A stretch of 64,000 nucleotides of DNA from a virus. How positions within the stretch are numbered: the stretch's first letter is position 1; each line of letters begins with the position of its first letter. Location of the stretch: the IMG/VR virus record IMGVR_UViG_3300027972_000001, positions 28,169 to 92,168 of that record, one strand, 5' to 3'. Below the pieces are notes generated by a model, which worked only from the letters and a program-made list of their open reading frames with translations, had not been told where the DNA came from and did not search any database. Shown here piece by piece: positions 4,862 to 37,600 of this stretch. Both the position numbers and the translations under genes were made by a program.

Positions 4862-4863
4862 AT

Positions 4864-11930: not shown

Positions 11931-14900
11931 CTATCCTCGGAAAAGTATATAATACTTATTGGTTTTGTTTATTCGTTGCATCTGTTGTATTTTATTCCAA
12001 ATCGGCACTAACTTAATAGCATTAACTTTAATTTTAAGTTCTTTTGCATATGCACCAGTAACATATCTTCTTTCCTTATCAGTTTGGAAAGGATAGCCAA
12101 CAAGATTAGATATTAATTTATAAGTATCAAGTATAGTACCTTGTACAGCAGCAGGAGATTTTAACATCTTTTGACCTTCATTTATAAGTCCAAATGGAGT
12201 AAACATCATTACTTCACTTAATAACTTATCTATTTCATAAACACTTAAATCATAAGCAAAGTTTTCATCATCATCATCATCAGGTTTAAGATTCTTTAAT
12301 ATAAGTCCAACAACAAGAACTGTAGCAAGATAAATATGATCCAATACGGCTCTCTTAACATTACCTTTTTCAAAATCATCTAATGTATTCCAATAAAGAC
12401 CAATATTAGTAGCAAAATGATGCATATCTTCAAGTATTCTACCCATCATACCATGAAACTGTTTAGCTTCATCAACATCTAAATATTTATGTCTACTAAA
12501 TGGACTTGCTAAAAACTTAAATAAACTAACATATGCTCCCTTATTCCATTCATCTCTACTTTCTGTCCAAAAACTCTTCCAAAATTTAGCACCAAATCTT
12601 TTATTCCAACCAGGACGAACATGTTTTTTAAATTGCATACCCATTCTACCTATAACCCATCTACTTATAGTAGCAGCATCTTCTTTATTATAAATACCTT
12701 GTTGTTTTTGAACTACTTTCAATGCTTTAATTCTAAATAAAGCATATTCATTATCATCTAATTTAGTATTATATTTCTTTCCATCTATTTCAATTTCATC
12801 TTTTAAATCGGCATAACCATCGTCATTTAGATAAAAAGCATCAATAAGTTTAGGATTAGATTCAAAATTAGTAAAAGTAGTCTTATCTAATTCTTTTTTA
12901 GCTTCAACAAATGCATTTCCTTTTATTATAGGGAGATTTAGTATAAAATCACGAAGATAATCTTTTTTAGACTCTTTAAATTCTTCTTTTTTATATCTTT
13001 CTTTTAAATATTCAGCTAAACGTGTTTTTTCAGTATCATCAAGTATTTTATTTAAAGCATCTATATAATTTTGCTGTTGATATTCAGCTAAAGACATTAT
13101 TTTACCATTAATAATTCTATGATGATCTAACATAGATAAAGTACTAACATTCTGCATATAGTGTTCACCTATATCATTAAGAAAATAAGCAGAACTCCAA
13201 CTAAGTAAGTTAGATTTTAACATACCAGTTGTAAAGTCACGTTCATTAGTATTTTGAGCAATATTAAGTTTCTTAATAATTGCATTAGTTAAAGTTCCAG
13301 CTTTAGTGCTTCCTAAATTAATAAGCATATCAGGAATAGCACTCATATACATTTTATCTGCCTTAACTAAATTATTATGTTTAAAATACCATCCAGCAAA
13401 TGCTTCCAGCTGAACTTGTATTTTACCAATCATAACGTTATTAATACCTGCTGTAACATTAAACCACATATTTTTAGCAGATGTAAATTTAAGTAACATA
13501 TTACCAATGACAGTCCATGCACCTTCATCTATATCAAAATTGCCATAAAATATAGCTTCAAGCCATTCAGCAAAATGTTGTTCAAGATTAGTACCTTCTC
13601 CACCAGTAGTTCCTATTACCTCTTTATCTAATGCTTTACTACCAGCTTTATTTTTAAGAAGTTCTCTTTTACTATTTCGTTTAGTAAATTCCATATTACG
13701 TATCTGATATAAACCAAGATCAAATTCATGTTTCATATCAGCTTTTACTTTATACATAGTAGCTTCTCTAATAAATTGAGAAAATACTTCTCCAAGATTA
13801 TAATTTATTTTACCAGCGTGTTCTTCATCATTAAGTTTTCTAATTCTCTTATTTTCAACATATATAGCACCAAGAGTATTAAATTTACCTTTTCCTGCTA
13901 CAGCAACATCTTGAATAACTCTTCTTTCGTAATCACTTTCTAATTCATCTTTTTCTTTAGGAGCAATCTTAATTTCTTCAGTAGTTCCAAAATAATTTAC
14001 CATAGGAACAGTAAGAAGATAAACCATTTCATTATTTTCTCCTACAAAACTATCACTTTGTTTTCTAGCTTTATGGATATCAATCCAATGTTTAACTTTT
14101 TCAGCAATAGTAATATTTTCCTTTTCCTCATTACTTAAACTAGGAATAAATCCTCTATTAAGAATAGTAGCTTTACCAAAATAGTCAGTATATTTATCAA
14201 TTATTTCTACAAACTTTTGATAAAGTTCATCATCTTTAATAGCAATCCAAGCTGGATTAAGATATTTATCAGAAGGAACAGACAGTAAACTATCACTTAC
14301 TAAAAATTGCATTTTACCATCATATTCTCTAACATTACGATATTTCCAAGCATTAAATTCAGGAGTACTTAATTCTTCTTGTTTTCTACGAACTAAGTTA
14401 TTAAATTCTTCCTCAGTTATATTTTGAATTTCATTATCTCTATACCATGCATCTCTACCATTATAATAACTTTGACTATTTCTACCATAAGTCTTAATTA
14501 AATATTTAAATTTAGCATTTTTATCAGTATAGAATTTATCCCAATCATATTTTTGAATAAGTTTACCTGTAGGTTTACCATTTTTGCGTTCAAGATACTT
14601 ATTAAAATCAGCAGTTGTTAAACTAGTAATATTACGTCCACCAAAAGTTTTTCTTAATAATGCTTCAAACTTACCAATTTCTTTACTAGATTCATCTTCA
14701 CCATTTGATACTTTTACCATATATTTTTTGACCATTAATGCAGCAAAAGCATTATTAGTATCAGCAAGTGAATCAAGTTTTAGTTGAATAAGATTTTCAT
14801 CATCACCTATATCTATAATTCTTCTAAGACCGGCAACTATTTCAGGATTCTTAGTATATTGGTAAAGATCTCGTTCTTCAAAATCATTCCATAATTTAGC

Positions 14901-17900
14901 AACTTTAGTTTCAACATTTTTAATACTAGGAATTAAGTTTTGAAGTTGTTTTATAAGATCATTAATTACTTTTTCTTCTTCAATAAATTCATTTCCATCT
15001 ACAGATGTTAAAACATCAAACGAAGTTACCCCTTTAATAAAAGAAGTTGCCCATTTAATAAAGCCGGTAAACTCTTTTCTAACAACAGGATCACTAATAA
15101 TAACATTCATATCCATATTTTCAAACTCCTGAACTCTAGCTATAATACCACCTTTTCTAGTTTCAGTTTTAGGATCATTAAGATCAAAATCATATTGTTT
15201 AAGAACTGTAATTAATCCTTTAGCAAGATTAGCCAAATCATTTTGACCTATAAGTTTTTGAAAATTTTTATCATTTAAAAGATTGGCAGCATCACTAAGA
15301 GTTCCAGCTTTCTTAAATTCTTTAAGAAATTGTATTCTATTAGCATAACTAGTAGTAGTTTTTTCTATGAATTTATTAGCAGAATCAATAGCATTATTAA
15401 TACCTTGATTAGTAGAAGAAGTATAAGAAACAAACTTAATATCTAATTGTCCTTCTTTTTGAGTTTCATTGAGAATTTGTGCTAATGCTCTAGCTTGATT
15501 AATATCACTAGTAGCAAATTTATCAGTAAGTATTTCATTTTTAACAAGAGATCTTAATTCCTCAATTAGTTCTGGATTTTGTTTAGCCCATTCTCTCCAT
15601 CCATCTAAATAATATTGCCATTGTTGTTCTCTAGTTATATCTGTAAGTGCTGGTTTACCTTTACCCTCTTTAATACTATTATATCCTTTAATATCAATTT
15701 GATAATGTTCTTCAATTGACATACTACGCATTAAAGTACTTAATTCTCCAGTGGTATCACTAACTTGCATTAATTTAGCTCCTGGTTTTAAAATAGCATA
15801 GAAAGCACTAAATCTTTTGTCTCCAGCACTAGATACTTCATATCCTCGTGTACTAAAACGTGACCAATTATATTTATTTTCAATTATAAGTTCATTATCA
15901 TCTTCAGTAACTTCTCCTTCTTCACTAATTCCAGTATTACTATCTTTCATTACATCTTGTAAAGTACCAATATACTCATATTCAAACTGAAATAGATCAG
16001 TTCTTTTTTCAAGAGGATGTGAAACAGTAATATCCCAACCTTCTTTCTTACTCCATTCTTCTCTAGCAGGAAGAGAACTAAGATCAATATGAGTTAATTT
16101 TTTAGTAACTTTTACATATTCATCAGTTCCTTTAAGTCTAATATATGTTCCAACTTTAGCTAATTCCCATTTCTGAGCTTCTCCTGTATCAGCATATCTA
16201 GTTGTAGCAGTTCTTTCTCCTGCTCTAACTAAATCTAAAGTACTATTATATTGTTCTAATCCATCTCTGAATGCATCATGAGTTCTAGTATAACTCATAG
16301 GAAGTGGTTCTTTATATATTACTTCATTAACTTGTCTTTGTTTTTCAAGAACATTAATTATTCCAATATAATCATCGGGACTTTGTAATTCACTTCCATT
16401 GAAATCTTGATTATTATCTTCAAATACACTTTGCTCTTCATTTTCAGAATATTCAAGTTTATTTATAGGATAATAATAAAATACACCAAATCTATTGCCA
16501 AATGTATCTACATTTACAAAATTATCATATCTTTGAAACAATTGATATTTAACTCCATCTTTAGTTGTTTTTCCTAATTTTATAACTTGTCTTTCTTTAA
16601 CTCTATTGGCTATACGACCAGTAGGAATATTATCAAGAGTTTTAGCAGGTATAGATATTATACCTTGTTTATTTACTTGAAAATATCTAACTTTACCACC
16701 TGTTGTTCCATCTTCATTTTGTGTAGTATTATCTATATATTTTAATCCACTTGCATCTGGAACAATTTTATCTTCTGTCCAATGAGATTTAATATATCTT
16801 TCTTTATAGTTACTATTAAATATAAGTTGGCTACCAGCATCTAAATCTGCATCTAAATCTTTTTCATCAAATAATAAACGATTTACAAGATTTAATTTTC
16901 CATATAAATGAGTACTTAATCCAATACCTTTTTCATTATAACTACCTTCCATAAATGGTTCATTACCATAATAGAAAACAGTATTTGGAATTATTTTACT
17001 AAATGAACTAAATCCAAATCCAAATCCATTAGTAATATATTCATATTTAAGTAAATTTCTAGCAACAATTTTTTCAAGTATATTTTCACTATACCAAAGA
17101 TCATTAAAAGATTGACTTACTTTATCTAGATTCTCATTATTAATATACTCAACTTTATAATGACGATTACGTTTTAATTCTTGTGCTTGTGTACTAACTT
17201 TTAAACTATTAATAATATGATTTTCATCATATTTAAGTTGATCATGTAAAAGTATAATTTGATTAGCAAGACTAAGTTGTTCAAAATCAGTAATACTTTC
17301 AGGATTTTTTAAATCTAAATTTAAATTTAATTCAGTATTAATACCAAGAAGAGTTCTTTTTTCTTCAATACTAATATCATTTAACCAAGGAAGATCTTTA
17401 AGTAAACTATTATTTAAATAACTAGTAATAGATTCAGCTAATTTTTTATCATATTTTTTATCAGTAACATAATCATTTAATTTACTTTTAATAAATCTAT
17501 ATAATTCACTTTGACCAATAAAATATTCTCCAAATGCTTTGACACTTAATTGATTAGAAAATATAAAAAATTGTTCAAGAGTAGGATAAACACTTGGTTT
17601 AGTTAAATTAAAAAATTTAGGAAATATTTGGTGCATAGCACTTGTATCATTTATTTCAAGTATACCTACCTTTTCAGTTCTATTTATATCAAATTCAAGA
17701 GAATGAGTAACATCAAATGTAGGTCCAGCACCTAGAGTATCAGTATTCAATACATGAGTACCATCAGTAATTGCATCTGAATATGCTTTATAATGTTTAA
17801 AAGTTTCAATAATTTGAAGTTGGTAACGAAGATGATTTTCAATTTCTTTAAGTCTATTAGTATCTGGATTTTCACTTGCAAGAATATCATTAATTTCTTG

Positions 17901-20900
17901 CATATTACCAAAATCATCTAACGTAACTGTATTTACATTGTTAAGTAATGTTTCATGATTTAATGTAATTCCTAAATTATTTTTATAACCTAAATAGTCA
18001 TATTGTTGATTTCTAACTGCATCTTTACCGCCAATAAAAATTGACTGTTTATTATTAATCTTTTCATCCCAACCTTTATTATGTTCTGCATCACCTTTAA
18101 TCATTACACGATATAAAAGTGTTTGAAATTTACGTTTAGTTTGTTCAATTTCACTACCACGTTTAACATTATTTAAATTAGCAAATAAAGTATTAACAAG
18201 ATCATGTATAATAGGTTGATTAATAAATGCTGTACTTACTTTAAATGTAGAACCTAAACTAACAAGCATTTTCCAAATATTAACAGTATATTCATTAACA
18301 TTTCTTGGAAGAGGAAATGCTACATTATCAAGAATATTTGCAGTAGTTTGTGCTGAATATGAACTTATGAGTTGTCCTTCAACATTTTTAAAAGTATTAT
18401 TAGGATTATTATTAATAAATCTATGAGTTACTATTGCATATTCTTTAGTATTATTTGTAGTGCCTCTAGTTTCAAATCTAACATCTTTACCATAATTTTC
18501 AATAAGTTGTTTTTTCTGTTCAGGATTAACAATATATTCAATAATAGGTAGAGTAATGTTATTATTTATATTATTTTTTTCATCTTTGAGTCTTTCTGTA
18601 AGATGTATTCTTGCAACTTGAGCAATAGAATTAAATCTATCTGATGCTAAACTAATACCTTTCAAATCTCTACCTTGATGTGATTTATCTCTATAATGTT
18701 GCTGACCATCAAAAGTAAGGTTATTAACTCTTTGATCAATAACATTGAATTTTTCATCAATCTCTTTTTTAGATTCAGTAATAGATTTAAAGTTAGATGT
18801 AGCTATAGTTTCTGCATAATGATATTTATTAGTTAAAATACCATAATATATATTTAGAATTTGATTTTCTCTAGCTTTTCTAGTATTTTGTTCAAGTATT
18901 GGTAAAGAAGATATAATTTCTTTAACTCTAGCTTTCACATTTATATATTCAACTTTATCTTTAAAATATATATATGCTTCATCACTCATTATTTGAGCAA
19001 ATACTTCAGCTTTTTCTAAATATAATGCTTTCTTCTCTTTACCTTTAGCTTTACTAATTCTTTTATTTATAGAATCAATTTTATCAAATTGCGGTTTATG
19101 TTTTTTATTAACTTCAGAAGTTTTATCAAGACTATCATAATATTCTTGTTTAGCTTCATCTAATGAAGTAACTATATCAATTAATTTATCATTATTTAAT
19201 TTAAGAGCTAGTATATGAACTAATTGAGAATGATCTTCCATTATAGCTTGAGCTCTACTATCAAGATTATTATCTTCTGTATAGGGAATACGTTCTACAG
19301 TATATATAGAAGTAGGTTTATTATCAACTATTTCAGTAGTTACTTTAGTATGCAAATTATATATAAATGCATATACATGATCCATATCAAAATCAGATCC
19401 TGTTTGAGTTACAAAATCATCAGGAAGAACAATACTTGGACCATTATCATCAGGAAGAAAACCAACAACTTTAAATACATAAGCACTATATTTGGCTTCC
19501 ATAGGAATACGATAACCAACCATAGTTCTAACTTCATCAGATAAAGTATTTATATCAACATATTCTCCATCTTTATAAAATTGTTTTGCCCATCTTGGAA
19601 GTAATACTTCAGCTTCTTGTACCATTCCTTCTTTTTCATCAAAAAGAATAGTAGAACGAAGTTTAATATCATTACGATTAATAACTTTACCAGCAGGATT
19701 AGTTTTAACACCTACGCTTTTGTGCCAGTTAATTCCATCAATAGATTCAAGATCTGACCATTTAACACCTTGTTTCTTATTCATGAATAAACTAGACATT
19801 TGAGCACCATGAAGTCCAGGAAACTTCTGGTTAGTTACACCATTAGTAAATAATGATGTAAGAATATGTTCACATTGAGCACTTTGAGTATTAAAGAAAA
19901 TAGGAACTCTGGAATCACCAGTATCTCCAATTTGAACACTAAATAATAAGTTTTTACTTAAATTACGATCAATTCCTTCTTTTTCAAGAATATCTACAAT
20001 TACATTATAATCTATATCACCTATAATATTTCCATCTTTATCAACTCTAACATCAAATGGTAATAAAGTTTTAATAGCACTTTGAAATACATTACTATTA
20101 ATAAGTTCAAAGTAATGATTTTTTAATTCAACGCCATTTAAAGTTTTACCATTGACTATATAATCAACACCAGTATCAGGAATATTTTCTATTATTTTTT
20201 TAGCAAATTGTCTACTTAAAGTAATAGTTTCTTCAAAAATAGCATCAGGAACTTCTAATTGCATACGTAATCCTTCATAATTATAATTACGTTTAGCTTT
20301 AATAAGTTCTTTTTCTAAAGTATCATCGTCTACTATATTACCATCTTCATCAGCAATAGTTGCAATATATAATGAACCAATTTTTTCAGCACTTCCAAGA
20401 TTTATTTGAGGAATATCTAATTTTATCATTATCTTATTAAGACTATCTAGTTGAAGATCTTTAATAAGAGCTGGTGTTAATATAATCTCTGCATTCTTAA
20501 CTTGAGTGGGAATCATTTTTTGTAAATCATCATTACGATCTATACTATAATAAAAGTTCTTTTGCATAGATGCAAAACGCATAGTATCTTCTCTATTTAA
20601 TTCTCCACCATTTCTAACTTTATTTAAAATAGTAGAATACTGTTCAGTTAATCCAAATCCATGAATACGTTTTTCAAATTCATCAAAGGTAACAAATGAT
20701 ACAGCATTAGCACTATCATTAGATAGATATGGAGAAACTAAATTGTATATTTCTTTTTCTTCAGGTCTAAATAATGTCTGTTCTTTATCATTAATAACTA
20801 TTTTATTAGTTGATAATTCTTTATCAGTATAGATTTTTTCAAGTCTACTAATACGAACTTTATCTTTATTAATATTAAGAGCATAAAGTAAAGTATTAAT

Positions 20901-23900
20901 TTTATGTCTATATATTTTAGATTTTAATTTAACATCAGAAATTGTTGCTCCAGAATAAAATCCTTTATGTACACTTGGAATACCATTTGCGATAATTTGT
21001 CTACCACGTTTATTTAAATCAATATTACTCTTGTAGTCAGCTACACTACCATAAAATAATCTAACTTGTTCTACATTAAAAAGATAAGTATTAAGAGCAT
21101 ATTCAGCAATAGCATTATTAAAATTTTTATCTTTTAATATAAATGTTTTATCTTCTCTACCTACATTCTCTTTTTTAACATATGCTGTTGTTAAAAAATC
21201 TTTATATACACTTAATTTTTCATCAGCAATATTAATTTGTTGTGAAATAAAACGTAATATAAATTGTTCTAATCTATTTTTAAAGGTAGAATTAGGATCA
21301 CCTTCAATAAGTGGAGTATGAATAGCAGAATTTAAAGAATTAGATAACATTAAATATTTAATAAAATTAGTGTTATTAATAAAAATACTATTAAAAGTAA
21401 TTTGTTTATTACCCATAGTAACAGTAAGATTATTAATATCAAAAATGTTGCCACTACTTGTTGTATCTAATCTATAAGTTCCGTCTGTATCTTTAGTGAA
21501 AGTTAAATATTTCTTAACACCATCTTTAAGTTTATAATGATAAAATAATTGTCCAGATTTAACATCATTTTGAAATTCTTTTTTAAGTACAAATCCAAAA
21601 TTACCATCATCAATAGCTTTACCATCTTTAAGTTCAAATAATACTTGTTTTGCAGTATTCATTGCTATTAGTTCATCAATAGCATTTAAATATATTGCTT
21701 TAAAAATTGGAATTTCTCTTACTAATTCAAGTGATTTATTAATATCAGTTTCTTTTTTAGCAAGTAGTAATTTAGTATAGTCTACAAAATTTAATTCAAT
21801 GATAGGTGCTTCAAATAATCTAGTATTTTTTCCATCTGAAGGATTTATCATTGGAAAAATAGCTGTAAGTTTTTCATTAACTTCTTTTTTAGTAGTAATT
21901 TTACCACCACCAAAATAATAAATTAAATTTCTTAATGTCCAATCATATTTAGTAAGTTTATGATATTCAGTAGCAATTCCCTCAGTAAGATCTTTGGTAC
22001 CACTATATCTAAAACTCTTAAAATTACTAAGATTAGTAGTATTTATAGTAGTTGCTTTTCTTATTCCGTCTACTATTTTATAATCAAATATACCTCTACC
22101 TTTCTTAACAATTTCATTATCTATATATTCATCCCCCCATAAAAGAAGAGAGTGTTGATTAGATAGAATTGTTGTATAATTAATTAGAGCATTATAAACA
22201 CTATCATCACCACCTTCAAGTTTCTTAAAGAAATTACTTAAAGAATCTGGTTTATTAGCATCAAACACTAAATTACCAGTAACATTTATATTGCTAAAAC
22301 TGAAATGATCTTCTCTAAAATATTTAACTTTCTTAGCTAAACGAAGAAGATTACCAAATTCATTAAATATTGTTTTAGGTGTGGCTTGTAATCTATCAAT
22401 ATAAGGTGTTTCATATAGTTTATATTTTACTCCAGGAATACCTTTAATATTACGAAGTGGAGTAATTATTCCATTAATAAATTCATTTCTATTGTTTAAA
22501 TATTCATAATTAATACTATCTAAAGTAATATCAATTCCAACTAAATAATATAATTGAACTATATTAGCACCAATTTCAGGATCTAATTTAGTAAAATTAG
22601 AACTAAGTGTTGCAGTTTCTTTATATAATTTATCATAATTTTCAATCCAATCTTTATCATAAAAATTATTTTCACCTCTACTAATAATTAAATTAGCCCA
22701 TTTATCAGCGATATGATATTCAACTGCATTTCTATTAACATTAGTTAAGGTAAGTTCTGTAGTTTCATAATCTCCAGTATAGTCAGTTCTAATTAAATCT
22801 CTATATGAATCAATAATAGCTTTATCAAAAGATACAAACCAAGCATTAAGTAAATCTGGATTATTACTAAGTTCTTTATGAATACTATATAAACTTTTAG
22901 CAAATACACTTTCTTTATTAGTAGCATAATTAAATAATGCGGTAAGCATATCTTCTTTAGTAAGACAACCACGCATTAAATCCATTATCTTATTTCCTCT
23001 TTCAGCATAAACAAGAGTATTAGCAAAACCAGTAGGAGTATTAGTATTAGTTCTCCATATAATTTTACCATCTATTATTTGAATACTATTAGGATCTAAT
23101 TCATATGTTTTATTAATAAGATTTTTAATTTGATCATTTACTGTAATTAAAGGGTTAACAATAACTACATCACTACTATCCCAAGATTTATCAAGTAATT
23201 CAACATCTTCTATATACTCTTCTTTTTCATTTATTTTATAACCATATTGATTACTTAAATGAATTCTAAAATATTTCCAAAATCTATCATTACTACTAAG
23301 TTCTTCAAGAACTTTAGTAATAAGAACTTTTTGATCATAAGTGAGAGTGCCTTCATTTTTACGAAGAGTAGCTTGTTTAGCTAGTTCTCTAACTAAATCA
23401 CTTCTAATTGCATTAGGATCAATATCTTTACCTTTAACTCCTTTATAAGAAGCACTTACTTTTTCAATAAATAAGTTACTAAGAACATTAAGAACATTAA
23501 CTTCTTGGTCTAATTCAAATGGAGAACCAGTAAGTTCTTTATTAACAGTAGAAGAATAAGAAATTGATTTAACATCTTTTTCAGAAATTATTGTATGAAT
23601 TTGTTCAGGTTTGAATACTATATATTCTTTTATTTTTATATTAAGATCTGTTGTGTTTAAAATTATACTGTCATATCCTTCTCTTTTAGCTCTTTCTATT
23701 ACTTGTGGTTTAGTTTCTTTAATATTAATACTTGGAGTGAAATCTTCTATTAATGGATTAATGATATTTAATACTACTTCAGTAATAAAAGGAGTTCCTG
23801 CTCTATATTCAGACATTTTTTTAGCATGTTCTATAGAATCTGAAAAGAAAAATCCTTTTGATATATATTGTTTATTTTCTGTAAAAGTTTTTATTTCTCC

Positions 23901-26900
23901 TTCTGGACTACCATGATAAAGAATATCTTTTATTTTGCTATCTGGAAAAATATTATTTAATTCATTTTTAGTCTCACTAGTAAAACTAACTATAGGTTTT
24001 TCAACAGGTTCATCTTCTGCAAATTTATCAAGAATATCATCATATTCATCACGATTAGAAACTTCACCTAATGTTGTTTTATCTATAGTACTTTTAATAT
24101 CTCCACCAGTAATAAATTGTTCAAATATATAATTTAATTCATCAAGTTTAGTACTAATGCCAAAAGTTTGTGCAAGTTCTCTTATTATCTGTTTTAATTT
24201 AGCCCAAAAACTAGTAGTAACTTTACCTTCAGTAGTTTTAACTGTATCAAGAAATTTAGCAAAATCAGTATCAGTAAGACCATATGTAAGAAGTTCTTCA
24301 ACATCTTTCATATTTAAAATGCTGATTAATTTATTTTCTATTTCAGTTCTATCTTTTTTCTCATTTAATAATTTATATTCAGGAGTAGTAAATAAATCAG
24401 ATTTAAATTTGTTAAGTTGTTCAATTAATTTAGTTTGTTCTTCTTTACTTCTAGTTCCAACTAAAGCATGTATAGTATCATGTACTAAAGCAAGAGTTGC
24501 ATCAACTTTATTTTTCTTATATAACTCAACCCAGGTTTTAGTTACTGTTATAGATTTATTAGAAGGTGTGTAATACACCATAGATTTTCTACCAGTTTCT
24601 TTATCAGTTTTAGTAACATCTAATGCACCATTAAATGTAATTTTACCACTTTTAATAAAAGTATCAAGAATTTTAAATATAAAGTCATATCTTTTATCAA
24701 ATTCATATTCACTACTAAATTTAGCAAAACTTGGAGTTTTAGTAACATTGGTCTTTAAATGACTTGTATCTATATTTACAATTAAAGGTACACCACCAAC
24801 ACCATCATATTGAGATAAAGTGAAATTACTAATCTTCTTACCATTTTTATCAACTAATTGTCCAACATCTGTAAGAATAGTATTACTACTAATTAAATAT
24901 TCTTCATATGAATTGTGTTTATTACCAAGAATATCAGTAAATATATTTCCATCAAAATAATCATAATTAATATTTCTTTCAAGAGAACCTAATTCATCTC
25001 TAAATTCTCTCTCATTTATTGGTTTAGTTATTTTAGTATTACCTTCAATACGTTCGTATCTAAATTTATTATTATAAAAATCATAAACAAAATAAGTTCC
25101 ATTACTATTAAATCTAATATCTCTATTAGTAACCATTAGAACATTAAAATGTTCTTGTTCATGTTGAATATTGATAATCTTTTTAAGTTCTGTAATTATA
25201 TTACTTGCAGTAAGATTATGTCCCTCAACAACAACTTGATCATTAATTCTAAATGCTTCACGAGCAAGTGCTTGTGTTTTACCAAGTTCAATAATTAAAT
25301 CTCCAATTTTTTCATGTAATTGTTTAACATTATCATCTTTAATTAAATTACTATCAATGCTATTTAATTTTATTGGAACAGGAGTAACTTTACCACTTCT
25401 ACCTACAACCCCAACAAGAAAAGAAGATGCAAATGTTGGAATAGTTCCTTGTTTAGTTATAGTTTCATTCTTATCTCTAGTATTTTCAATTACAGTTTTA
25501 TTAGAATTATTTTGTATTTTAAATAATTTAACTTTACTAGGATTATCAATTACAGAAAGATTTCTATATTTAACATTTCCTTTCTCATCTTTACTTTTAA
25601 CTAAAGTTCCATCAGTAATATATGTAATTTTACTTTCAACAATTTTATCAATATCTATTCCAATAATTTCTCTAAGTTTAGTATTCTGAATATGATCTCT
25701 AGTAAGTTTATCTTTCCAACGAACTATATTTGCAATAATTTCATTTCTTCTTAATTCAATAGGAGTAACACCATCTGTATTCTGTCCATAAAACATAACA
25801 CGAGCAATATGAGTAAAAGCTTTCATACCTTGCTCACTTCTAATATCAATATCTCTACCTACTAAATCATAAAGAAGTTCACGAATATCAGCATCTATAA
25901 GTTCCAAATATATTCTAGAAATAGTAGTCTTGCTTTCATTCATTTTTTTAGCATTAAAAAATGTTTGAATAAGTGGGAGCAATCTACCAATATATTCTAT
26001 TTTATTATTACTAGTACTTATATCATTAATTATAACGTCTGTCCAGTCTTTACCATTAAAACGATACTTAACTCCGGCATGCATACCACTTAAAGTACTG
26101 ACTGCAGCAATAGGAGTACGTTTATTTCCACTTATTGCTTCAATTATAATAGGTATAGTTTCTTGGTTATTCTTATTTTGGTTGAACCCCTGATCTCCGG
26201 ACAATTCAGTATTGACATGGGCAACTACCTGTGAATTTTCAGCCAAAGAGTTCAAAAGAGCATTAACACGTTCAATATCTTTATCATCTACAACCTGATC
26301 ACCATTATCATTACGAGTAGTTTCTAAATTATAAAGAAATGCTCCTAATACTTCTTCACCACCAGTAGGAGTTACATTATTTATATTACTAATTTGAGCT
26401 TCTTTAAATTCATCTTTAAGTCCATAAGATTCAATAATCTTATTAACATCAGTCTTTTTTAAATTATCATCAGTATTATAAATACGTTTCTGACCTTCTT
26501 CACCTATTTTACTACTTCTAATAATACTATACGCCTGTTTAAGATATTCAAAATCTTCTTTTAATCTTTGAACACCAACTAGTTTACCATATTTAGCAGC
26601 AATAAGTTCAAATTTAAAGAATGTACCATGTTCTGCAGATTCAACAAATAAAGGAGTACCATCATTTATAATTCTAGTTATCCATCTATTTGCCCTTGCA
26701 ACTATATTTTTTGTTATGGGGTTTTGGGAAGTAAAATCAACAACAGATAGAGTTAAATCAGTAATATTAGTAGATTTATCTGTAAGTTTAGAGATTTCTG
26801 CATCATATTTAGTATTAATTTTAGCTTTTAAATATTTTTCAGAAATTTCTATTGCTTTATTTAGAGCAGTTTCACGATTTTTTTCTAGTTGTTGTAAATT

Positions 26901-29900
26901 TTTATCATAAATAGCACCTTTATTAGCTCCAGATTTTACAAAATATTCATCAAATTCAGTTTTTGCTTTTGTATAATCATCTATTAAATCTTTTGACATA
27001 CCACTTTTTAAAGCACTTTCTATATTAAATAATGTGGTTTTTAATTCTTCTTGTCTACGTTTTTCAATATCAACTATTAAACTAGAAAAATTATTAGATG
27101 ATTCTTGTTTATACGCTTGTTCTTTAATTTCTTTTTCTATTTCATCTAATTCTTTGCCATTCAATGCAGATTTAAATTCTTCAGCATTATTAATATGTTC
27201 TTGTGATTTATTACTTCCAGTAGGAGTAGTTGTTTCAGTATTAGTTATATATCCAGCAATAACAAGAAATTCATTTATAAATTCTTCTATTACATTTCCT
27301 TTAGTAAGAGCATTAAACATATTATTTAAAGCATCTCTTAACTGATTTCTAGTTGCCTGACCATACATATCAAATAAACTAGGATCAGATAACATAGCAA
27401 AGAAATCACCAATACTATTAAGTGTATTAGGATCTGTAGGTTTTGCTATTTCTTTAAGAATAGTATTTGCAAAATGTGTACTACGTTTTCCAGTGAATTG
27501 ACTTTTAACACCTACAACACCTAACTTAAGAAAAGCATCAGATAATTTATTAACAAGTGCTGTATTTTTGACTTCTACATTACTACTACTTTGTTCATCA
27601 GCAATCATTAATGTTTTTTGATTTACTAATATACTTCTTCTTTTTTCAAGAACATCAATATATGCTTCTAATCTATCTTTATTTAATTTCTTAGTAGGTT
27701 TAGCTTCAGTAACAAAAGGATCTAAATTATCTTTTTTAAGTTGTTCTAAAGTATCATCAATAACTTTAATTTTAGCATCCATTGTAGAACTAGTATCTAC
27801 TTTAGGATCTACTTTAGTATTCTCACCTATTTTAACTCTAAATGTCTCAAATTGTTTACTATATTCTTTATCAGTTTCAACTTTAAGTTTATTCTCAATA
27901 GTAGGAATACTCTTGTTAGTATTCATTACTTCTTCATATAAACTATTATCAACATGAAGAAATAATTCATAAACTTTAGCTTCTGCTTCAGCTTTTATAA
28001 TATCATTAATAGAATCAAAGTCACCTACTGCTTTATTATCTCCTAACTCTTTATCATGAAGTTTAAATTCATCTTTATATTGCTTAACTTTCTCTTTAGC
28101 AATATTCTTAGCAATTGGATCACCCCACTCTTCTACTTCAGTGTCAAGATATTTAATAACTTCAGCATTAATAAGATTATCTAAAGTTCCCTCAAAATCT
28201 TTATCTTTATTTTGTTCTTTAAGAGCATCTAAAGCTGGATTATTAGTTCGTAAATTAGTTGCTCTTTGTTTAGCATTATTACGCAATTTAGTTGTTTGTT
28301 CAACTTCAAATTTCTTATTTATTGCTTCATTAATAATGAGATTTCTTAAATGTGGTTTACTACTTGTTGCAGTAAATATTTTGTTATATGTTGCTTTAAA
28401 AGTATGTTCGGCATCAAGAATATTCTTTTTAAGACTGACTAAATCTTTACTAAAATTAACTTCATCTGTCAATCCAAGTTCAATCATTTTCTTTTTAAAT
28501 CCTTCATGTTCAACCATCTCAAGTAATGAATTAATATTACCTGAAAGTGAAGCATTAAATCCAAGATCATATCCTAATACTGTTTTGACTCTATCAATCA
28601 TATCCTTTTGAGACTGTTCAATAGTTTCTTTATCACCAACAAAAGGAGTATTAGTATTTATATTAATTCCTTTTTGAATGTCACTAATATTATTAGCACG
28701 ATTAGCAAGTTTAATATATCTATTTTGAATTTCACCAATCTTCATTTCAGTACTATGAGGATCTTTGAAATCATTAATAGTTTCTTTTATAGAACCAATA
28801 GTACGTGCACCACCACTGAATGCTACACCACCAGCAAATCCCCAAAATGCTTGTTCCCAACTACTAGGATCTTGAAGATATTCATGTATTCTATCTACAA
28901 AATCTTTATCTTTTTCACTACCTAATAGATGTTTACCATACCAATTAGCATCAGATTGAGAAATAGCATTTACAAGTTCTTCTACTCCTTCTGTCATTTG
29001 CTCACCAACTAACACAGTTCCCCCCTTAAAAAAAGAAGATGCGTTGAAACGTGGTTTAGTAATAACGCCAGGTTCTAATATATTAGCTTGTGCAGCTTTT
29101 ACTTTAGCACTTTCTAGCCAACCTGCAGTTCTAGTTTTAACTTTAAATCCTTTAAATATTGGAGCAAGTTGCATTGCATCAAATATAACATTGACTGCAT
29201 TCATACCATAATCTTTCCATGCTCCTTTACTAGCTATAAAATTAGCAAGTTCAAGTTTATCTGGAGTTCTACCTTCTGCAAGAAACTCTTGTCCAACTTC
29301 AGAATTTAGAACTTTTTGATATTCTTCATCATCTTGAAATAATTTAAATGCTTCTTCTTTAAGCGTATTAAATACTCCACTAGCTTCTCTCATATTTTCT
29401 GCATTACGCATAGCAATAGCAGAATGAGTAAGACCTTGCCAATATTTTTCAGTAGCAAATATATCAGATGCAGCAATAAATGCTTTAGAAACACCTGTCA
29501 TTTTATTAAGTCTACTAAGTGCAGCAATTTTTTGAAGTCCTTTACTAAAATAACCAGCAGCTTTAGCTTCACCAAGTGCAGGAATTAACATTCCTAAAGT
29601 ACTAAATACACTAACAGCATTGCTAGTCCACCATCCAAAATCTTTCCAATCAAATGATTTACCAGGATTATATCTAAATATAGGAGTTTTATTTCCTAAT
29701 TCTTCGGTAATATTATCTGCAAATTTAGTCATAAAATTACTAAAATCTGCATCTCTTCCTGCTATTTCATCTGCAATAGCATCAGGTAATTCCAATAACC
29801 CACCAACACCACCAATAACTCCTTGAGCAAGTATTTCTCCTATTACACCTTGACTAAACATATTACCTACTTTACTCCAAGCAGATTGATTCTGAGCAGC

Positions 29901-30122
29901 CTGACGTTCTAAATTAACATTAGGATATATTTCATCTATAAAACGTTTATATTTATCACTATTTGGCTGGTATAAACTTAAATCAGAACTAATATTATTC
30001 ATATTAGTATCAATCTTAAATTTACTATTAATTGGTGCTATTTTTTCAACACTTTTTGGAGTAACAGTAAGAGAAGGATTAATCTTTAACCCTTTATTAA
30101 TAGGAGTAAGTTCGTTAGTCAT
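11931..30122 (-). CDS. Giant multi-domain virion RNA polymerase protein, 6063 aa
   Basis: One uninterrupted 18.2-kb frame. The RNA polymerase assignment rests on DFDMD at 3577-3581 within TGSDFDMDH. This is the metal-binding loop of the crAss-like virion RNAP family (related to YonO/QDE-1 polymerases), preceded by the family-like GYRIPMEAKYS block. Before it lie Gly/Ala-rich hydrophobic N-terminal segments (about 45-70 and 360-450), long coiled coils (about 450-1000), a metallopeptidase-like site HDTIH at 1881-1885, and an ADP-ribosyltransferase-like domain (about 2060-2176). After it come an ASCH-like domain (about 4615-4720), a block starting YEVSSAGDKRFSA (about 4755-4880), and a C-terminal region with a hydrophobic helix near 5930. 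Such proteins are packaged, ejected, and transcribe early genes. The stop is TAG; a tight 3-nt gap follows the previous gene. Confidence 0.88.
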   Translation of the reverse strand: MTNELTPINKGLKINPSLTVTPKSVEKIAPINSKFKIDTNMNNISSDLSLYQPNSDKYKRFIDEIYPNVNLERQAAQNQSAWSKVGNMFSQGVIGEILAQGVIGGVGGLLELPDAIADEIAGRDADFSNFMTKFADNITEELGNKTPIFRYNPGKSFDWKDFGWWTSNAVSVFSTLGMLIPALGEAKAAGYFSKGLQKIAALSRLNKMTGVSKAFIAASDIFATEKYWQGLTHSAIAMRNAENMREASGVFNTLKEEAFKLFQDDEEYQKVLNSEVGQEFLAEGRTPDKLELANFIASKGAWKDYGMNAVNVIFDAMQLAPIFKGFKVKTRTAGWLESAKVKAAQANILEPGVITKPRFNASSFFKGGTVLVGEQMTEGVEELVNAISQSDANWYGKHLLGSEKDKDFVDRIHEYLQDPSSWEQAFWGFAGGVAFSGGARTIGSIKETINDFKDPHSTEMKIGEIQNRYIKLANRANNISDIQKGININTNTPFVGDKETIEQSQKDMIDRVKTVLGYDLGFNASLSGNINSLLEMVEHEGFKKKMIELGLTDEVNFSKDLVSLKKNILDAEHTFKATYNKIFTATSSKPHLRNLIINEAINKKFEVEQTTKLRNNAKQRATNLRTNNPALDALKEQNKDKDFEGTLDNLINAEVIKYLDTEVEEWGDPIAKNIAKEKVKQYKDEFKLHDKELGDNKAVGDFDSINDIIKAEAEAKVYELFLHVDNSLYEEVMNTNKSIPTIENKLKVETDKEYSKQFETFRVKIGENTKVDPKVDTSSTMDAKIKVIDDTLEQLKKDNLDPFVTEAKPTKKLNKDRLEAYIDVLEKRRSILVNQKTLMIADEQSSSNVEVKNTALVNKLSDAFLKLGVVGVKSQFTGKRSTHFANTILKEIAKPTDPNTLNSIGDFFAMLSDPSLFDMYGQATRNQLRDALNNMFNALTKGNVIEEFINEFLVIAGYITNTETTTPTGSNKSQEHINNAEEFKSALNGKELDEIEKEIKEQAYKQESSNNFSSLIVDIEKRRQEELKTTLFNIESALKSGMSKDLIDDYTKAKTEFDEYFVKSGANKGAIYDKNLQQLEKNRETALNKAIEISEKYLKAKINTKYDAEISKLTDKSTNITDLTLSVVDFTSQNPITKNIVARANRWITRIINDGTPLFVESAEHGTFFKFELIAAKYGKLVGVQRLKEDFEYLKQAYSIIRSSKIGEEGQKRIYNTDDNLKKTDVNKIIESYGLKDEFKEAQISNINNVTPTGGEEVLGAFLYNLETTRNDNGDQVVDDKDIERVNALLNSLAENSQVVAHVNTELSGDQGFNQNKNNQETIPIIIEAISGNKRTPIAAVSTLSGMHAGVKYRFNGKDWTDVIINDISTSNNKIEYIGRLLPLIQTFFNAKKMNESKTTISRIYLELIDADIRELLYDLVGRDIDIRSEQGMKAFTHIARVMFYGQNTDGVTPIELRRNEIIANIVRWKDKLTRDHIQNTKLREIIGIDIDKIVESKITYITDGTLVKSKDEKGNVKYRNLSVIDNPSKVKLFKIQNNSNKTVIENTRDKNETITKQGTIPTFASSFLVGVVGRSGKVTPVPIKLNSIDSNLIKDDNVKQLHEKIGDLIIELGKTQALAREAFRINDQVVVEGHNLTASNIITELKKIINIQHEQEHFNVLMVTNRDIRFNSNGTYFVYDFYNNKFRYERIEGNTKITKPINEREFRDELGSLERNINYDYFDGNIFTDILGNKHNSYEEYLISSNTILTDVGQLVDKNGKKISNFTLSQYDGVGGVPLIVNIDTSHLKTNVTKTPSFAKFSSEYEFDKRYDFIFKILDTFIKSGKITFNGALDVTKTDKETGRKSMVYYTPSNKSITVTKTWVELYKKNKVDATLALVHDTIHALVGTRSKEEQTKLIEQLNKFKSDLFTTPEYKLLNEKKDRTEIENKLISILNMKDVEELLTYGLTDTDFAKFLDTVKTTEGKVTTSFWAKLKQIIRELAQTFGISTKLDELNYIFEQFITGGDIKSTIDKTTLGEVSNRDEYDDILDKFAEDEPVEKPIVSFTSETKNELNNIFPDSKIKDILYHGSPEGEIKTFTENKQYISKGFFFSDSIEHAKKMSEYRAGTPFITEVVLNIINPLIEDFTPSINIKETKPQVIERAKREGYDSIILNTTDLNIKIKEYIVFKPEQIHTIISEKDVKSISYSSTVNKELTGSPFELDQEVNVLNVLSNLFIEKVSASYKGVKGKDIDPNAIRSDLVRELAKQATLRKNEGTLTYDQKVLITKVLEELSSNDRFWKYFRIHLSNQYGYKINEKEEYIEDVELLDKSWDSSDVVIVNPLITVNDQIKNLINKTYELDPNSIQIIDGKIIWRTNTNTPTGFANTLVYAERGNKIMDLMRGCLTKEDMLTALFNYATNKESVFAKSLYSIHKELSNNPDLLNAWFVSFDKAIIDSYRDLIRTDYTGDYETTELTLTNVNRNAVEYHIADKWANLIISRGENNFYDKDWIENYDKLYKETATLSSNFTKLDPEIGANIVQLYYLVGIDITLDSINYEYLNNRNEFINGIITPLRNIKGIPGVKYKLYETPYIDRLQATPKTIFNEFGNLLRLAKKVKYFREDHFSFSNINVTGNLVFDANKPDSLSNFFKKLEGGDDSVYNALINYTTILSNQHSLLLWGDEYIDNEIVKKGRGIFDYKIVDGIRKATTINTTNLSNFKSFRYSGTKDLTEGIATEYHKLTKYDWTLRNLIYYFGGGKITTKKEVNEKLTAIFPMINPSDGKNTRLFEAPIIELNFVDYTKLLLAKKETDINKSLELVREIPIFKAIYLNAIDELIAMNTAKQVLFELKDGKAIDDGNFGFVLKKEFQNDVKSGQLFYHYKLKDGVKKYLTFTKDTDGTYRLDTTSSGNIFDINNLTVTMGNKQITFNSIFINNTNFIKYLMLSNSLNSAIHTPLIEGDPNSTFKNRLEQFILRFISQQINIADEKLSVYKDFLTTAYVKKENVGREDKTFILKDKNFNNAIAEYALNTYLFNVEQVRLFYGSVADYKSNIDLNKRGRQIIANGIPSVHKGFYSGATISDVKLKSKIYRHKINTLLYALNINKDKVRISRLEKIYTDKELSTNKIVINDKEQTLFRPEEKEIYNLVSPYLSNDSANAVSFVTFDEFEKRIHGFGLTEQYSTILNKVRNGGELNREDTMRFASMQKNFYYSIDRNDDLQKMIPTQVKNAEIILTPALIKDLQLDSLNKIMIKLDIPQINLGSAEKIGSLYIATIADEDGNIVDDDTLEKELIKAKRNYNYEGLRMQLEVPDAIFEETITLSRQFAKKIIENIPDTGVDYIVNGKTLNGVELKNHYFELINSNVFQSAIKTLLPFDVRVDKDGNIIGDIDYNVIVDILEKEGIDRNLSKNLLFSVQIGDTGDSRVPIFFNTQSAQCEHILTSLFTNGVTNQKFPGLHGAQMSSLFMNKKQGVKWSDLESIDGINWHKSVGVKTNPAGKVINRNDIKLRSTILFDEKEGMVQEAEVLLPRWAKQFYKDGEYVDINTLSDEVRTMVGYRIPMEAKYSAYVFKVVGFLPDDNGPSIVLPDDFVTQTGSDFDMDHVYAFIYNLHTKVTTEIVDNKPTSIYTVERIPYTEDNNLDSRAQAIMEDHSQLVHILALKLNNDKLIDIVTSLDEAKQEYYDSLDKTSEVNKKHKPQFDKIDSINKRISKAKGKEKKALYLEKAEVFAQIMSDEAYIYFKDKVEYINVKARVKEIISSLPILEQNTRKARENQILNIYYGILTNKYHYAETIATSNFKSITESKKEIDEKFNVIDQRVNNLTFDGQQHYRDKSHQGRDLKGISLASDRFNSIAQVARIHLTERLKDEKNNINNNITLPIIEYIVNPEQKKQLIENYGKDVRFETRGTTNNTKEYAIVTHRFINNNPNNTFKNVEGQLISSYSAQTTANILDNVAFPLPRNVNEYTVNIWKMLVSLGSTFKVSTAFINQPIIHDLVNTLFANLNNVKRGSEIEQTKRKFQTLLYRVMIKGDAEHNKGWDEKINNKQSIFIGGKDAVRNQQYDYLGYKNNLGITLNHETLLNNVNTVTLDDFGNMQEINDILASENPDTNRLKEIENHLRYQLQIIETFKHYKAYSDAITDGTHVLNTDTLGAGPTFDVTHSLEFDINRTEKVGILEINDTSAMHQIFPKFFNLTKPSVYPTLEQFFIFSNQLSVKAFGEYFIGQSELYRFIKSKLNDYVTDKKYDKKLAESITSYLNNSLLKDLPWLNDISIEEKRTLLGINTELNLNLDLKNPESITDFEQLSLANQIILLHDQLKYDENHIINSLKVSTQAQELKRNRHYKVEYINNENLDKVSQSFNDLWYSENILEKIVARNLLKYEYITNGFGFGFSSFSKIIPNTVFYYGNEPFMEGSYNEKGIGLSTHLYGKLNLVNRLLFDEKDLDADLDAGSQLIFNSNYKERYIKSHWTEDKIVPDASGLKYIDNTTQNEDGTTGGKVRYFQVNKQGIISIPAKTLDNIPTGRIANRVKERQVIKLGKTTKDGVKYQLFQRYDNFVNVDTFGNRFGVFYYYPINKLEYSENEEQSVFEDNNQDFNGSELQSPDDYIGIINVLEKQRQVNEVIYKEPLPMSYTRTHDAFRDGLEQYNSTLDLVRAGERTATTRYADTGEAQKWELAKVGTYIRLKGTDEYVKVTKKLTHIDLSSLPAREEWSKKEGWDITVSHPLEKRTDLFQFEYEYIGTLQDVMKDSNTGISEEGEVTEDDNELIIENKYNWSRFSTRGYEVSSAGDKRFSAFYAILKPGAKLMQVSDTTGELSTLMRSMSIEEHYQIDIKGYNSIKEGKGKPALTDITREQQWQYYLDGWREWAKQNPELIEELRSLVKNEILTDKFATSDINQARALAQILNETQKEGQLDIKFVSYTSSTNQGINNAIDSANKFIEKTTTSYANRIQFLKEFKKAGTLSDAANLLNDKNFQKLIGQNDLANLAKGLITVLKQYDFDLNDPKTETRKGGIIARVQEFENMDMNVIISDPVVRKEFTGFIKWATSFIKGVTSFDVLTSVDGNEFIEEEKVINDLIKQLQNLIPSIKNVETKVAKLWNDFEERDLYQYTKNPEIVAGLRRIIDIGDDENLIQLKLDSLADTNNAFAALMVKKYMVKVSNGEDESSKEIGKFEALLRKTFGGRNITSLTTADFNKYLERKNGKPTGKLIQKYDWDKFYTDKNAKFKYLIKTYGRNSQSYYNGRDAWYRDNEIQNITEEEFNNLVRRKQEELSTPEFNAWKYRNVREYDGKMQFLVSDSLLSVPSDKYLNPAWIAIKDDELYQKFVEIIDKYTDYFGKATILNRGFIPSLSNEEKENITIAEKVKHWIDIHKARKQSDSFVGENNEMVYLLTVPMVNYFGTTEEIKIAPKEKDELESDYERRVIQDVAVAGKGKFNTLGAIYVENKRIRKLNDEEHAGKINYNLGEVFSQFIREATMYKVKADMKHEFDLGLYQIRNMEFTKRNSKRELLKNKAGSKALDKEVIGTTGGEGTNLEQHFAEWLEAIFYGNFDIDEGAWTVIGNMLLKFTSAKNMWFNVTAGINNVMIGKIQVQLEAFAGWYFKHNNLVKADKMYMSAIPDMLINLGSTKAGTLTNAIIKKLNIAQNTNERDFTTGMLKSNLLSWSSAYFLNDIGEHYMQNVSTLSMLDHHRIINGKIMSLAEYQQQNYIDALNKILDDTEKTRLAEYLKERYKKEEFKESKKDYLRDFILNLPIIKGNAFVEAKKELDKTTFTNFESNPKLIDAFYLNDDGYADLKDEIEIDGKKYNTKLDDNEYALFRIKALKVVQKQQGIYNKEDAATISRWVIGRMGMQFKKHVRPGWNKRFGAKFWKSFWTESRDEWNKGAYVSLFKFLASPFSRHKYLDVDEAKQFHGMMGRILEDMHHFATNIGLYWNTLDDFEKGNVKRAVLDHIYLATVLVVGLILKNLKPDDDDDENFAYDLSVYEIDKLLSEVMMFTPFGLINEGQKMLKSPAAVQGTILDTYKLISNLVGYPFQTDKERRYVTGAYAKELKIKVNAIKLVPIWNKIQQMQRINKTNKYYILFRG

Positions 30123-34611: not shown

Positions 34612-37600
34612 TCATAAAATATTTTTGGCTTCAATACCAATATTAGAAATACGAATCTTTTTATTACTAGAACTATTAGTATATATTAATCTCATTACTA
34701 TAAATTTAGTAATAAATTTTGACTTTTCATAATAAAGTTTAGATAAATTTAATGCAGAACTTAATAAATTATAATTAGCATCTAGAAAAACACTATTTGG
34801 AGTACTTAAATAATCTTTAATATCGTCAAATACCCATTCGCCATCTTTAAACATTGCATTACCAGTATCTTCCATGACATATGTACCGCCATTATAACTA
34901 TAACTTCTTTTAGCAATAGTTATTTCTTCAGTACATAAATTTTTAGAATATATAAGTAATTTACTAATAGTTTCATTCCAATAATTAATTTCTCCAGATT
35001 CTATATTACTAACCCATTTAACATGTCTAAGAAGGAATCTTTCAGCTGTATTACTATTAAAAATAAAATCTGTACTACTTGGAAAATATACACCTTCATA
35101 TAGTCCATAATTACTAGATAACATTTTATATATAATACCATTATTAAAACAATATAGACCATTACTATTCCATGTATATTTATCAGGAATATAATCATGA
35201 AAAGCAATCCAATTCATTTTTTCAAATTGGAAACTTAAAGTAAAATCATTAATTGTTAATATTCCACCCGTAATTGCACCAGTAGTTGAAGCAGTTGTAG
35301 TGTATGTAAAAGTTTTATCTCCAGTTACAGTAATAGAAAATACGCCATTACATACTGTAACATCCCAATTTAACATTCTTATAAAATTACCACTACTAAG
35401 TCCATGATTACTAACAGTAGTAACAGTTACTGTAATACCACCAGTTCCACTTCTAATAGCTGATGTTACTGCAATAGGAGAATTTCTTAAAGTAATAAGT
35501 AATCTTTTATAAATATCATCATATCCTAAAGCAACTCCACTTCCAATGCCTTCTTTAGTAGCACTAAAGGACATAACACTCTTAATTCTATTTCTAAACC
35601 AATCTTCAATACCAAGTTTAGTAATTTCATTAGCTTTATCAGATATAACATAAATACTACCTTTATCTAGATCAACTGTTACTAAACCATATGGAGTAAG
35701 AATAGTACCTTCCTTATTCCAAGGTCTAATATAAGCACCATCTGCATCTAGTAATTCTTCTAATGGTCTATCAAATATTTCTGAACTTTTAAGTGCAACA
35801 TCTATATTTCCAGTAACAAGTTTATCAACAATAATACCTCTAAAAATACTATATTGTGTTTGAATATAAACTATATTTTCATTACCAATAGCTTTATATA
35901 TTGCACCTTTATTATTAACCATATCAAAATAATCAAGTATTTTGAATTTTTTCCAATATACAGAACTAGCTTCAAGAGGTTGAGGCATAGAACTTTGAAT
36001 TCTATTTGGATAACTAACTATTAAACTAGTAAGTTCATTATCTATACTATCTTGTCTAAAAGTATTTAATAAATGATAATCATTATTATAAAAATAATAG
36101 TTAGCAACACCAGCTGCAATCATAGCAGTAACATATGCTTGTATTGGAATTATATCATCATTAAACTCAGTAATATCTGTTAAAGGATAAAACTTTTCAT
36201 AATCATTATATCCTTCATATCTCATACCACTATTGAGAACACTTTCAACTGGAAAATACCATATTTTAGGAACAGTATCAGCATTTGGAAAAGTAAGTAC
36301 AGAATTATGTCCAATAAATGTATCACCCCCATATAAAGAAAATGCACTAGTGTTCACTAATGGTTTAACAATTCCAGTACTTACAAGTTCTTGATTAGTA
36401 AAATCTAAATATAAATTACTTTTAATACTTATAAGATTAACTAATCTTAAATTAAAACTACCACTAGTAGTTTCAAAATAATAACAATTTTCTCTATTTG
36501 TATTTACAGGTACACTAGCACTATTATATGGTGGAAGATATTTTATTTTAGTTATAGCACTGTATGCAGCAGTTTGACCAGTATAATTAGTAATTTCATT
36601 TATATATGCACCAATACTATAATCAGCAGTTTCTAATTTTAATTCAGCTTTAACATGAGTAGGTTCAATATTAAGAAGATTACACATACTATCAAAACCA
36701 TAAAATCTATATCCTACTCCATCTGCAATTGCAATACTTTGATCTAACATTAGTTGATTAATCAAAGTACGTTTAGCATAGAATATTTCCCAACCATCAA
36801 TAACAGCTTCAAGAGATGCAGCAGTAGCTGCATGACTAGCTTGTACAGTAGTCCAATCTAAAGCTATGCGAAGTCCTAATGTTTCTTGTCCTTGTGTTGC
36901 TTCATAAACACCCATAGTTGTAGCATCTGTATAACCAGGAGTTCCAGCAGGAGCATGAGTACTTAATTGATTTATTTCAATTTGAAATGTAATATAATCA
37001 CCAACATTAAGTTCAATATCTTCAGAATGTGTAAATGTTAATGTTTCATCTAATAAAACAGTAGTTTTAGTTTCAGGTCCATGAAGAATACTAGATGTAT
37101 AACCAGTAAGTGTTTTAGTATATTTTACAATAGTTAAGGTTGCAGTTGCTCCAGCAGCAACAGTATCAATCAATCTAATACCTAAACTAAAATCAAGGTC
37201 TAATACTTGAGTATATGTAGCAGTATATGTATTTACATATGTAGTAGGAGATGCAGCCTGAACATATGTACCCATTGTCGGTGTAGCATTAAGAGGAAGA
37301 ATAACAAATAATTGATCTGTAATTCCTATTTCATATTCATTTATACCACTAAATCCTAATGTTTGTACAAGACTTCCTTTTTTAGTAGTATTTAAAATAT
37401 GTGTTTTCCATGTATTTATTTGTCCAGCACTAGGAAATCTATGATGTCTAACATTTTTTCCAGATAATGCAGTACCATATTCAGCAGAATATGTTTCATC
37501 TGTATTCTGCCAAAATCCCATTGGACCATAATAATCACTAGTTTTAGTAGCACTACTTGTTAATTTATAATTAAGTATAGATACACCATCAATAGTAGTA

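Follow-up and report, generated by a model that had tools for sequence, protein, structure and literature searches.

A one-chain crAss-like virion RNA polymerase of 6063 residues and the cysteines at the meeting ends of its split relatives

The window analysed here (64,000 nucleotides, the final 64 kb of a 92,168-base virus record) encodes a crAss-like virion RNA polymerase (RNAP) as one chain of 6063 residues, in which an RNAP-associated, zincin-like N part, a catalytic M part and a helical C part are fused in the order found in relatives. Very probably this is the complete enzyme, which would be packed into the virion and ejected as one thread, with peptide bonds in place of the disulfides proposed below for relatives with split genes. 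A review describes crAss-like RNAP genes of up to ~6000 aa and enzymes of one to three large subunits (PMC10136315), so the single long chain varies a design already known, and its novelty is modest. What is new bears on how the enzyme gets through the tail: the chain is depleted of cysteine, the cysteines of split relatives are confined to the ends at which subunits meet, and the zincin motif has degraded to HDxxH. crAss-like phages rank with the most common viruses of the human gut, and the problem addressed is how megadalton amounts of folded enzyme pass through a channel less than 50 Å wide.

The catalytic core

The polymerase open reading frame (ORF) lies on the minus strand at positions 11931–30122 (28.4% of the window), starts with ATG and contains no internal stop codon (translation table 11). 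Its product has a predicted mass of ~694 kDa and carries the motif DFDMD at residues 3577–3581, flanked by 3576 residues on the N-terminal side and 2482 on the C-terminal side. Translation of the ORF confirms the one unbroken 18.2-kb frame with this motif that a preliminary description had reported. A chance open frame of 18 kb at ~27% G+C is far beyond expectation.

The polymerase core is not recognised by Pfam, PHROGs or NCBIfam, and a phmmer search of the PDB with the core alone returns nothing real; the known structure is reached only via a profile of relatives. Searched against the PDB, this profile of 12 core sequences finds a single sequence, 6VR4 (the virion polymerase of phage phi14:2; E 2.2e-50), and the DFDMD of the window aligns over its catalytic DFDID. 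An AlphaFold2 model of residues 2961–3800, built with 44 sequences (pLDDT 83.5, pTM 0.82), has 6VR4 as its first structural match (E 1.6e-29, probability 1.00), followed by distant multisubunit RNAPs. All three aspartates of DxDxD are invariant in the 44-sequence alignment. A tblastn search with the core retrieves 107 phage records, almost all crAss-like, with phi14:2 among them (E 7e-21). The preliminary assignment to the crAss-like virion-type RNAPs is therefore supported by the core profile, the core model and the invariant aspartates. The profile search and the AlphaFold modelling that it had proposed both lead to 6VR4, and neither a different fold around the motif nor a loss of the motif among relatives was seen. 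The position following the motif is occupied by H, T, S or K, so the DFDMDH ending once singled out as peculiar has no special meaning; the Met of DFDMD occurs only in the window phage and in relatives L009 and L022. An N4-like virion RNAP with a T7-like single-subunit domain is ruled out, since the match of the core is to 6VR4, a two-barrel enzyme.

Three subunits in one chain

The labels N, M and C were assigned by profiles, and the parts of the chain are as follows (window coordinates).

11931..30122, minus strand: whole chain in the order N-M-C, 6063 aa, 2 cysteines; single-chain crAss-like virion RNA polymerase ORF
23970..30122, minus strand: N part, residues 1–2051; equivalent to p-crAssphage gp45, crAss002 gp32, crAss001 gp47 and phi14:2 gp078
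26763..27158, minus strand: residues 989–1120, without counterpart in L009 and L022 (the alignment breaks here)
24468..24482, minus strand: degenerate zincin motif HDTIH, residues 1881–1885, by comparison across relatives
23580..23969, minus strand: insert at the N/M junction with an ART-PolyVal (ADP-ribosyltransferase) domain, residues 2052–2181, Pfam PF18760
15891..23579, minus strand: M part, catalytic, residues 2182 to ~4744; equivalent to phi14:2 gp077 (the virion RNAP of PDB 6VR4) and crAss001 gp50
19380..19394, minus strand: DFDMD metal-binding motif, residues 3577–3581, by profile and alignment
15459..15872, minus strand: PHROG_9995 module, residues 4751–4888, without counterpart in L009
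11934..14453, minus strand: C part, third subunit, residues 5224–6063; equivalent to phi14:2 gp076 and crAss001 gp49

Matches to the reference proteins are colinear along the chain. In blastp, residues 47–601 match crAss002 gp32 (E 1e-51), residues 47–436 are covered by a match to p-crAssphage gp45 (E 4e-34), and residues 1736–2024 again match crAss002 gp32 (E 1.5e-4). The N subunits of crAss001 and phi14:2 (gp47 and gp078) give no blastp match to the window N part and were equated with it by gene order and size. Residues 2594–4384 match the catalytic subunits phi14:2 gp077 and crAss001 gp50, and the first part of crAss002 gp33 and p-crAssphage gp44. Residues 5224–6058 match crAss001 gp49, phi14:2 gp076 and the ends of the same crAss002 and p-crAssphage proteins. 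The N and C partner subunits of crAss-like polymerases are thus both found, by matches to reference subunits, inside the window chain. The C part is predicted to be mostly helical, and its model, of fair quality (pLDDT 77), has no match in the PDB.

The preliminary description placed the length of the chain at the extreme end of the known range. This view does not hold, since the chain is the sum of three known subunits, and relatives that make the enzyme as two or three chains total 5.4–7.4 thousand residues (5398 in phi14:2, 6027 in p-crAssphage, 6102 in crAss001, 6265 in crAss002, 6642 in cr127_1 and 7369 in cr271_1). The phi14:2 enzyme (KC821624 gp077, called gp66 in the literature, with gp078 and gp076), whose subunits are virion proteins by MS/MS, shares the homologous core, the DxDxD motif and the N-M-C order. 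It differs in having three chains (1797 + 2180 + 1421 aa), four cysteines at the meeting ends and no ART module noted. In p-crAssphage (Carjivirus communis; gp45 and gp44) and crAss002 (gp32 and gp33) the same three parts are present with M and C fused (4070 and 4245 aa), but N is a separate ORF with an HExxH zincin motif and a terminal cysteine. In cr127_1 (Crevaviridae), gp48 and gp49 place N and M+C in one frame, in the order of the window chain; here one TAA lies between them, and gp48 has a cysteine at its end, gp49 at position 4.

Cysteine depletion of the chain

The window chain contains two cysteines where ~53 are expected, or 0.3 per 1000 residues versus 8.7 in the remaining proteome (binomial P 1.7e-20), and every other residue of the chain stays within 0.45 log2 units of the remaining proteome. 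The L009 chain has three cysteines, none of which aligns with the two of the window chain. Polymerase subunits of gut Intestiviridae carry additional internal cysteines.

Other ejected giant proteins, namely the N4 virion RNAP (3500 aa), T7 gp15, T7 gp16 and the tape measure protein (TMP)-RNAP of Thermus phage P23-45 (5002 aa), have no cysteine at all, and authors working on N4-like phages tied this absence to passage through the tail and the periplasm (PMC3715699, PMC2784036). The N4-like enzymes (Schitoviridae) are likewise giant injected single chains, but they have a T7-like polymerase fold, ~3500 aa and a non-homologous catalytic domain. P23-45 gp96 is likewise a two-barrel RNAP in a virion chain, but there the RNAP is the N-terminal portion of a tape measure protein, in a phage with a long tail. 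As the crAss-like core fold differs from that of the N4 polymerase, the depletion seems to have arisen convergently and speaks for ejection of the chain, with indirect support for its predicted packaging and early-transcription role; near-absence of cysteine is what is expected of a thread that avoids stray disulfides en route.

Cysteines where split subunits meet

At the stop codons between split subunits, C or Cx closes the upstream subunit and M-x-C opens the downstream one. This pattern was counted in relatives from metagenomic contigs, some of them close kin, with the first ATG taken as the start codon. In the first set, a cysteine is present in the last three residues of 28/28 N and 16/20 M subunits, and in the first nine residues of 40/45 M and 18/18 C subunits. 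The outer ends have none (0/22 N-termini of N, 0/55 C-termini of C). Among 340 other ORFs of the same loci, cysteine is found in the first nine residues of 13 and in the last three of 16; Fisher tests of junction ends versus these controls give P of 1e-15 to 1e-37, values that are not true probabilities because the sequences are related. A second set, obtained with a different query and taken from at least 544 relatives after removal of contigs already used, behaves in the same way. Here a cysteine is present in the last four residues of 47/49 M and 6/7 N subunits and at the N-termini of 44/45 C and 26/33 M subunits; most of the missing M N-termini belong to chains of 3.9–5.0 thousand residues, which are probably N+M fusions with an undetected N. 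The outer ends of this set score 0/52 and 0/28. Pooling both sets without near-duplicates leaves not one outer end with a cysteine among the 12 residues nearest the terminus (0/98 and 0/46, together 0/144). The subunits without the terminal cysteine include N of L022 and L154 and M of L067 and L071.

The total number of cysteines follows the number of chains, with a minimum of 2 × (chains − 1) and no case below it: two-chain enzymes never have fewer than two (37 phages) and three-chain enzymes never fewer than four (7 phages). Single chains have 0–3, and eight of ten have none; L041, counted among the single chains by its length, starts with MSKC and is probably split. The phi14:2 enzyme has only four cysteines in 5398 residues: the last residue of gp78, positions 3 and −2 of gp77, and position 3 of gp76. 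In crAss001 the corresponding cysteines stand at position −3 of gp47, positions 5 and −9 of gp50, and position 5 of gp49.

A start or stop motif shared at the DNA level was considered as the cause of the pattern and rejected, as both TGT and TGC are used and the spacing between the genes varies, from an overlap up to 265 bases. Moreover, in crAss001 and cr85_1 N is encoded on the opposite strand and still ends with a near-terminal cysteine, which indicates that selection acts on the protein. The idea that cysteines are merely tolerated at loose ends was rejected on the count of 0/144 at the outer ends. In the crAss-like phage literature searched we found no mention of this rule; the phi14:2 polymerase paper and the 2018 crAss-like genomics paper lie outside that scope, and an earlier mention is possible.

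Judged from these sequences, the simplest reading of cysteines at the junction ends, none at the outer ends and none needed in fused chains is that inter-subunit disulfides would join the subunits into one linear thread. It is conceivable, if rather doubtful, that the end cysteines would instead bind a metal across the interface or tether the subunits to another virion protein. Such roles fit poorly with cysteines that flank each break on both sides and avoid the outer ends, and with the minimum counts given above. The ends that were inspected have no conserved histidine or second cysteine nearby, and crAss001 virions do contain inter-subunit disulfides elsewhere (PMC10172136).

With disulfides as the preferred reading, the route of the polymerase can be outlined. 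By homology, the chain is most likely packed in the head beside the cargo proteins. It would be pushed, partly unfolded, through the portal, the tail and the envelope as a single thread, and would then refold in the cytoplasm and transcribe the early genes; partial unfolding and serial extrusion of cargo have been proposed (PMC10172136). The thread would consist of an RNAP-associated N part with a relic zincin, a two-barrel catalytic M part and a helical C part, with the ART and PHROG_9995 modules riding on it as injected extras. Split relatives would build an equivalent thread by coupling their subunits head-to-tail through disulfides where the window phage uses peptide bonds. We lean towards extending this to all crAss-like phages: each would eject its polymerase as one covalent N-M-C thread of ~5–7 thousand residues, held together in split genes by junction disulfides that persist outside the cell and are reduced in the cytoplasm, and in fused genes by peptide bonds, with no cysteine needed.

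The single chain indicates that all three polymerase parts can be delivered as one thread. The end cysteines amount to a simple, quantitative and testable rule, by which separately made parts of the enzyme have a cysteine wherever they meet a neighbour and, in many cases, no other. Should these ends be joined by disulfides, crAss-like phages would order and deliver proteins by means of redox-cleavable couplings, and the published reduced and non-reduced samples of crAss001 virions might already contain the answer.

Accessory modules and the integrity of the protein

The ART-PolyVal domain (PF18760, E 1.7e-11, above the Pfam cut-off) sits as an insertion precisely where N meets M. It has the H, D and E signature positions in common with two phage homologues, and may be an active ADP-ribosyltransferase. 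The nearest phage homologues lie within large proteins of unrelated Dolichospermum and Pseudomonas phages. The PHROG_9995 module (E 1.1e-33 in PHROGs) has no Pfam name and is 42–44% identical to small proteins of phiKZ-like, N4-like, Achromobacter and Delftia phages. An ASCH-like reading of the region near residue 4630 (the GERTATTR stretch, residues ~4601–4710, window 15993–16322) was dropped, as Pfam reports no such domain there.

Polyvalent proteins of phages and conjugative elements are likewise large multidomain chains with ART-PolyVal and zincin-like domains, and some N4-like virion RNAPs carry zincin and ART domains as well (PMC5512222). The window chain shares the ART-PolyVal domain but differs from polyvalent proteins in its crAss-like RNAP base and its degenerate zincin motif. 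The HExxH signature of an active zincin metallopeptidase, present in nearly all relatives, is replaced by HDTIH in the window phage and by HDMIH in L009, while L022 has HEILH. Self-cleavage by the zincin-like domain is therefore unlikely in the window phage and L009, although another protease could act. Loss of HExxH is not strictly coupled to fusion, as the fused L023 has HELVH.

These motifs bear on whether the enzyme is a polyprotein, synthesized in one piece and later divided into its three parts by a protease (its own zincin or a different one), either inside the head or once injected. For large injected polyvalent proteins, processing by their zincin-like peptidases has been proposed (PMC5512222), and HExxH is found in the zincin region of many relatives. 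We nevertheless consider such cutting unlikely. HDxxH should cripple the zincin of the window phage and L009, whereas HEILH is retained in L022, a split relative. Furthermore, the fused chains are devoid of the terminal cysteines found on almost every separate subunit, as if separate ends had never existed. The chain would thus probably remain uncut.

Arrangements in relatives and integrity of the frame

The N, M and C profiles reveal four arrangements among relatives: three separate subunits, N separate from M+C, N+M separate from C, and N+M+C. Besides the window phage, nine relatives probably have single chains (L009, L023, L138, L140, L141, L147, L155, L157 and L161); L141 is so called by its length, its N part being too divergent for the profile. 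On a FastTree tree of the core, the fusion state switched 14 or more times at the N/M junction and six or more times at the M/C junction. In L020, L029, L032, L038, L043 and L046, N and M+C are in frame with a lone TAA between them, which one substitution would remove.

The single chain of L009 has no counterpart of residues 989–1120, of the ART insert (2052–2181) or of the module at 4745–4893. L022 is ~46–49% identical to the window polymerase and has N separate from M+C, with roughly 6 kb and several ORFs at the N/M junction. The ART insert of the window and these ~6 kb indicate that the N/M junction tolerates insertions. In L076 (reverse strand), of the L022 phage, the ~6-kb interval from N to M+C holds ORFs of 771, 564, 212, 189 and 171 residues, some of them fibre-like by eye.

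Separate M or C proteins might also be made from internal starts of the same gene, but this is very improbable: GTG and TTG aside, the sole in-frame ATG in residues 2000–2300 is at 2103, inside the ART domain, and the window chain has nothing like the MxC-type N-terminus with which M of split relatives begins.

The same frame is open in L009, from a different metagenome (5824 aa, 60% identity over 5745 aligned residues), and in L023 (5646 aa counted stop to stop). An error in one place could fuse an arrangement like that of cr127_1 and several relatives, with N and M+C in one frame and a single stop between, but that misassembly or a sequencing error erased the real stops between the subunits of the window phage is scarcely credible, as the frame is open in L009, with codon position 2 better conserved than position 3 all along the chain, and likewise in eight more distant single-chain contigs, and the N/M junction itself holds a 130-residue insert.

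Genome context and classification

Both ends of the record carry the same exact direct repeat of 127 bp (window 63874–64000, identical to record bases 1–127), which indicates a complete, circular genome of ~92,041 bp. The polymerase gene has a late-gene position, with two cargo-position ORFs and a muzzle-like ORF directly upstream on the same strand. Two of these neighbours are given here.

30126..32519, minus strand: 797-aa product of the adjacent upstream ORF, cysteine-free, at the cargo position and on that basis C2-like
34612..38799, minus strand: 1395-aa muzzle-like tail protein (position of the stabilization protein, gp44), with a C-terminal match to a cr127_1 protein (E 1e-16)

Just past the 3' end of the polymerase gene and convergent with it lies an ORF that looks GIY-YIG-like by eye (window 11089–11835), and the GC skew switches sign near the same positions.

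The window phage carries the Crassvirales signature of TerL, portal and major capsid protein, with identities to cr127_1 of 48%, 30–31% and 45%, respectively; the major head protein matches PHROG 11589 (E 2e-63). By TerL and major capsid protein, cr127_1 (Crevaviridae) is the closest classified phage, at less than 50% identity, and its RNAP forms a long branch in the core tree. No close relative of cr127_1 turned up in a scan for them. In the same tree, the window phage groups with L009, L022, L023 and L024 beside 32 Intestiviridae-like rows (support 80–100). Membership in Intestiviridae was rejected, as the core groups outside the rows of that family and N is fused instead of separate.

The major capsid protein (window 59950–61419) is 89% identical to that of L009 and the polymerase ~60%, which indicates that the polymerase evolves much faster. 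Two adjacent ORFs of 347 and 362 aa (window 55771–56814 and 56821–57909) have the look of a tandem duplicate; tandem copies of gene 74 are reported in Beta and Delta crAss-like phages (PMC7886860).
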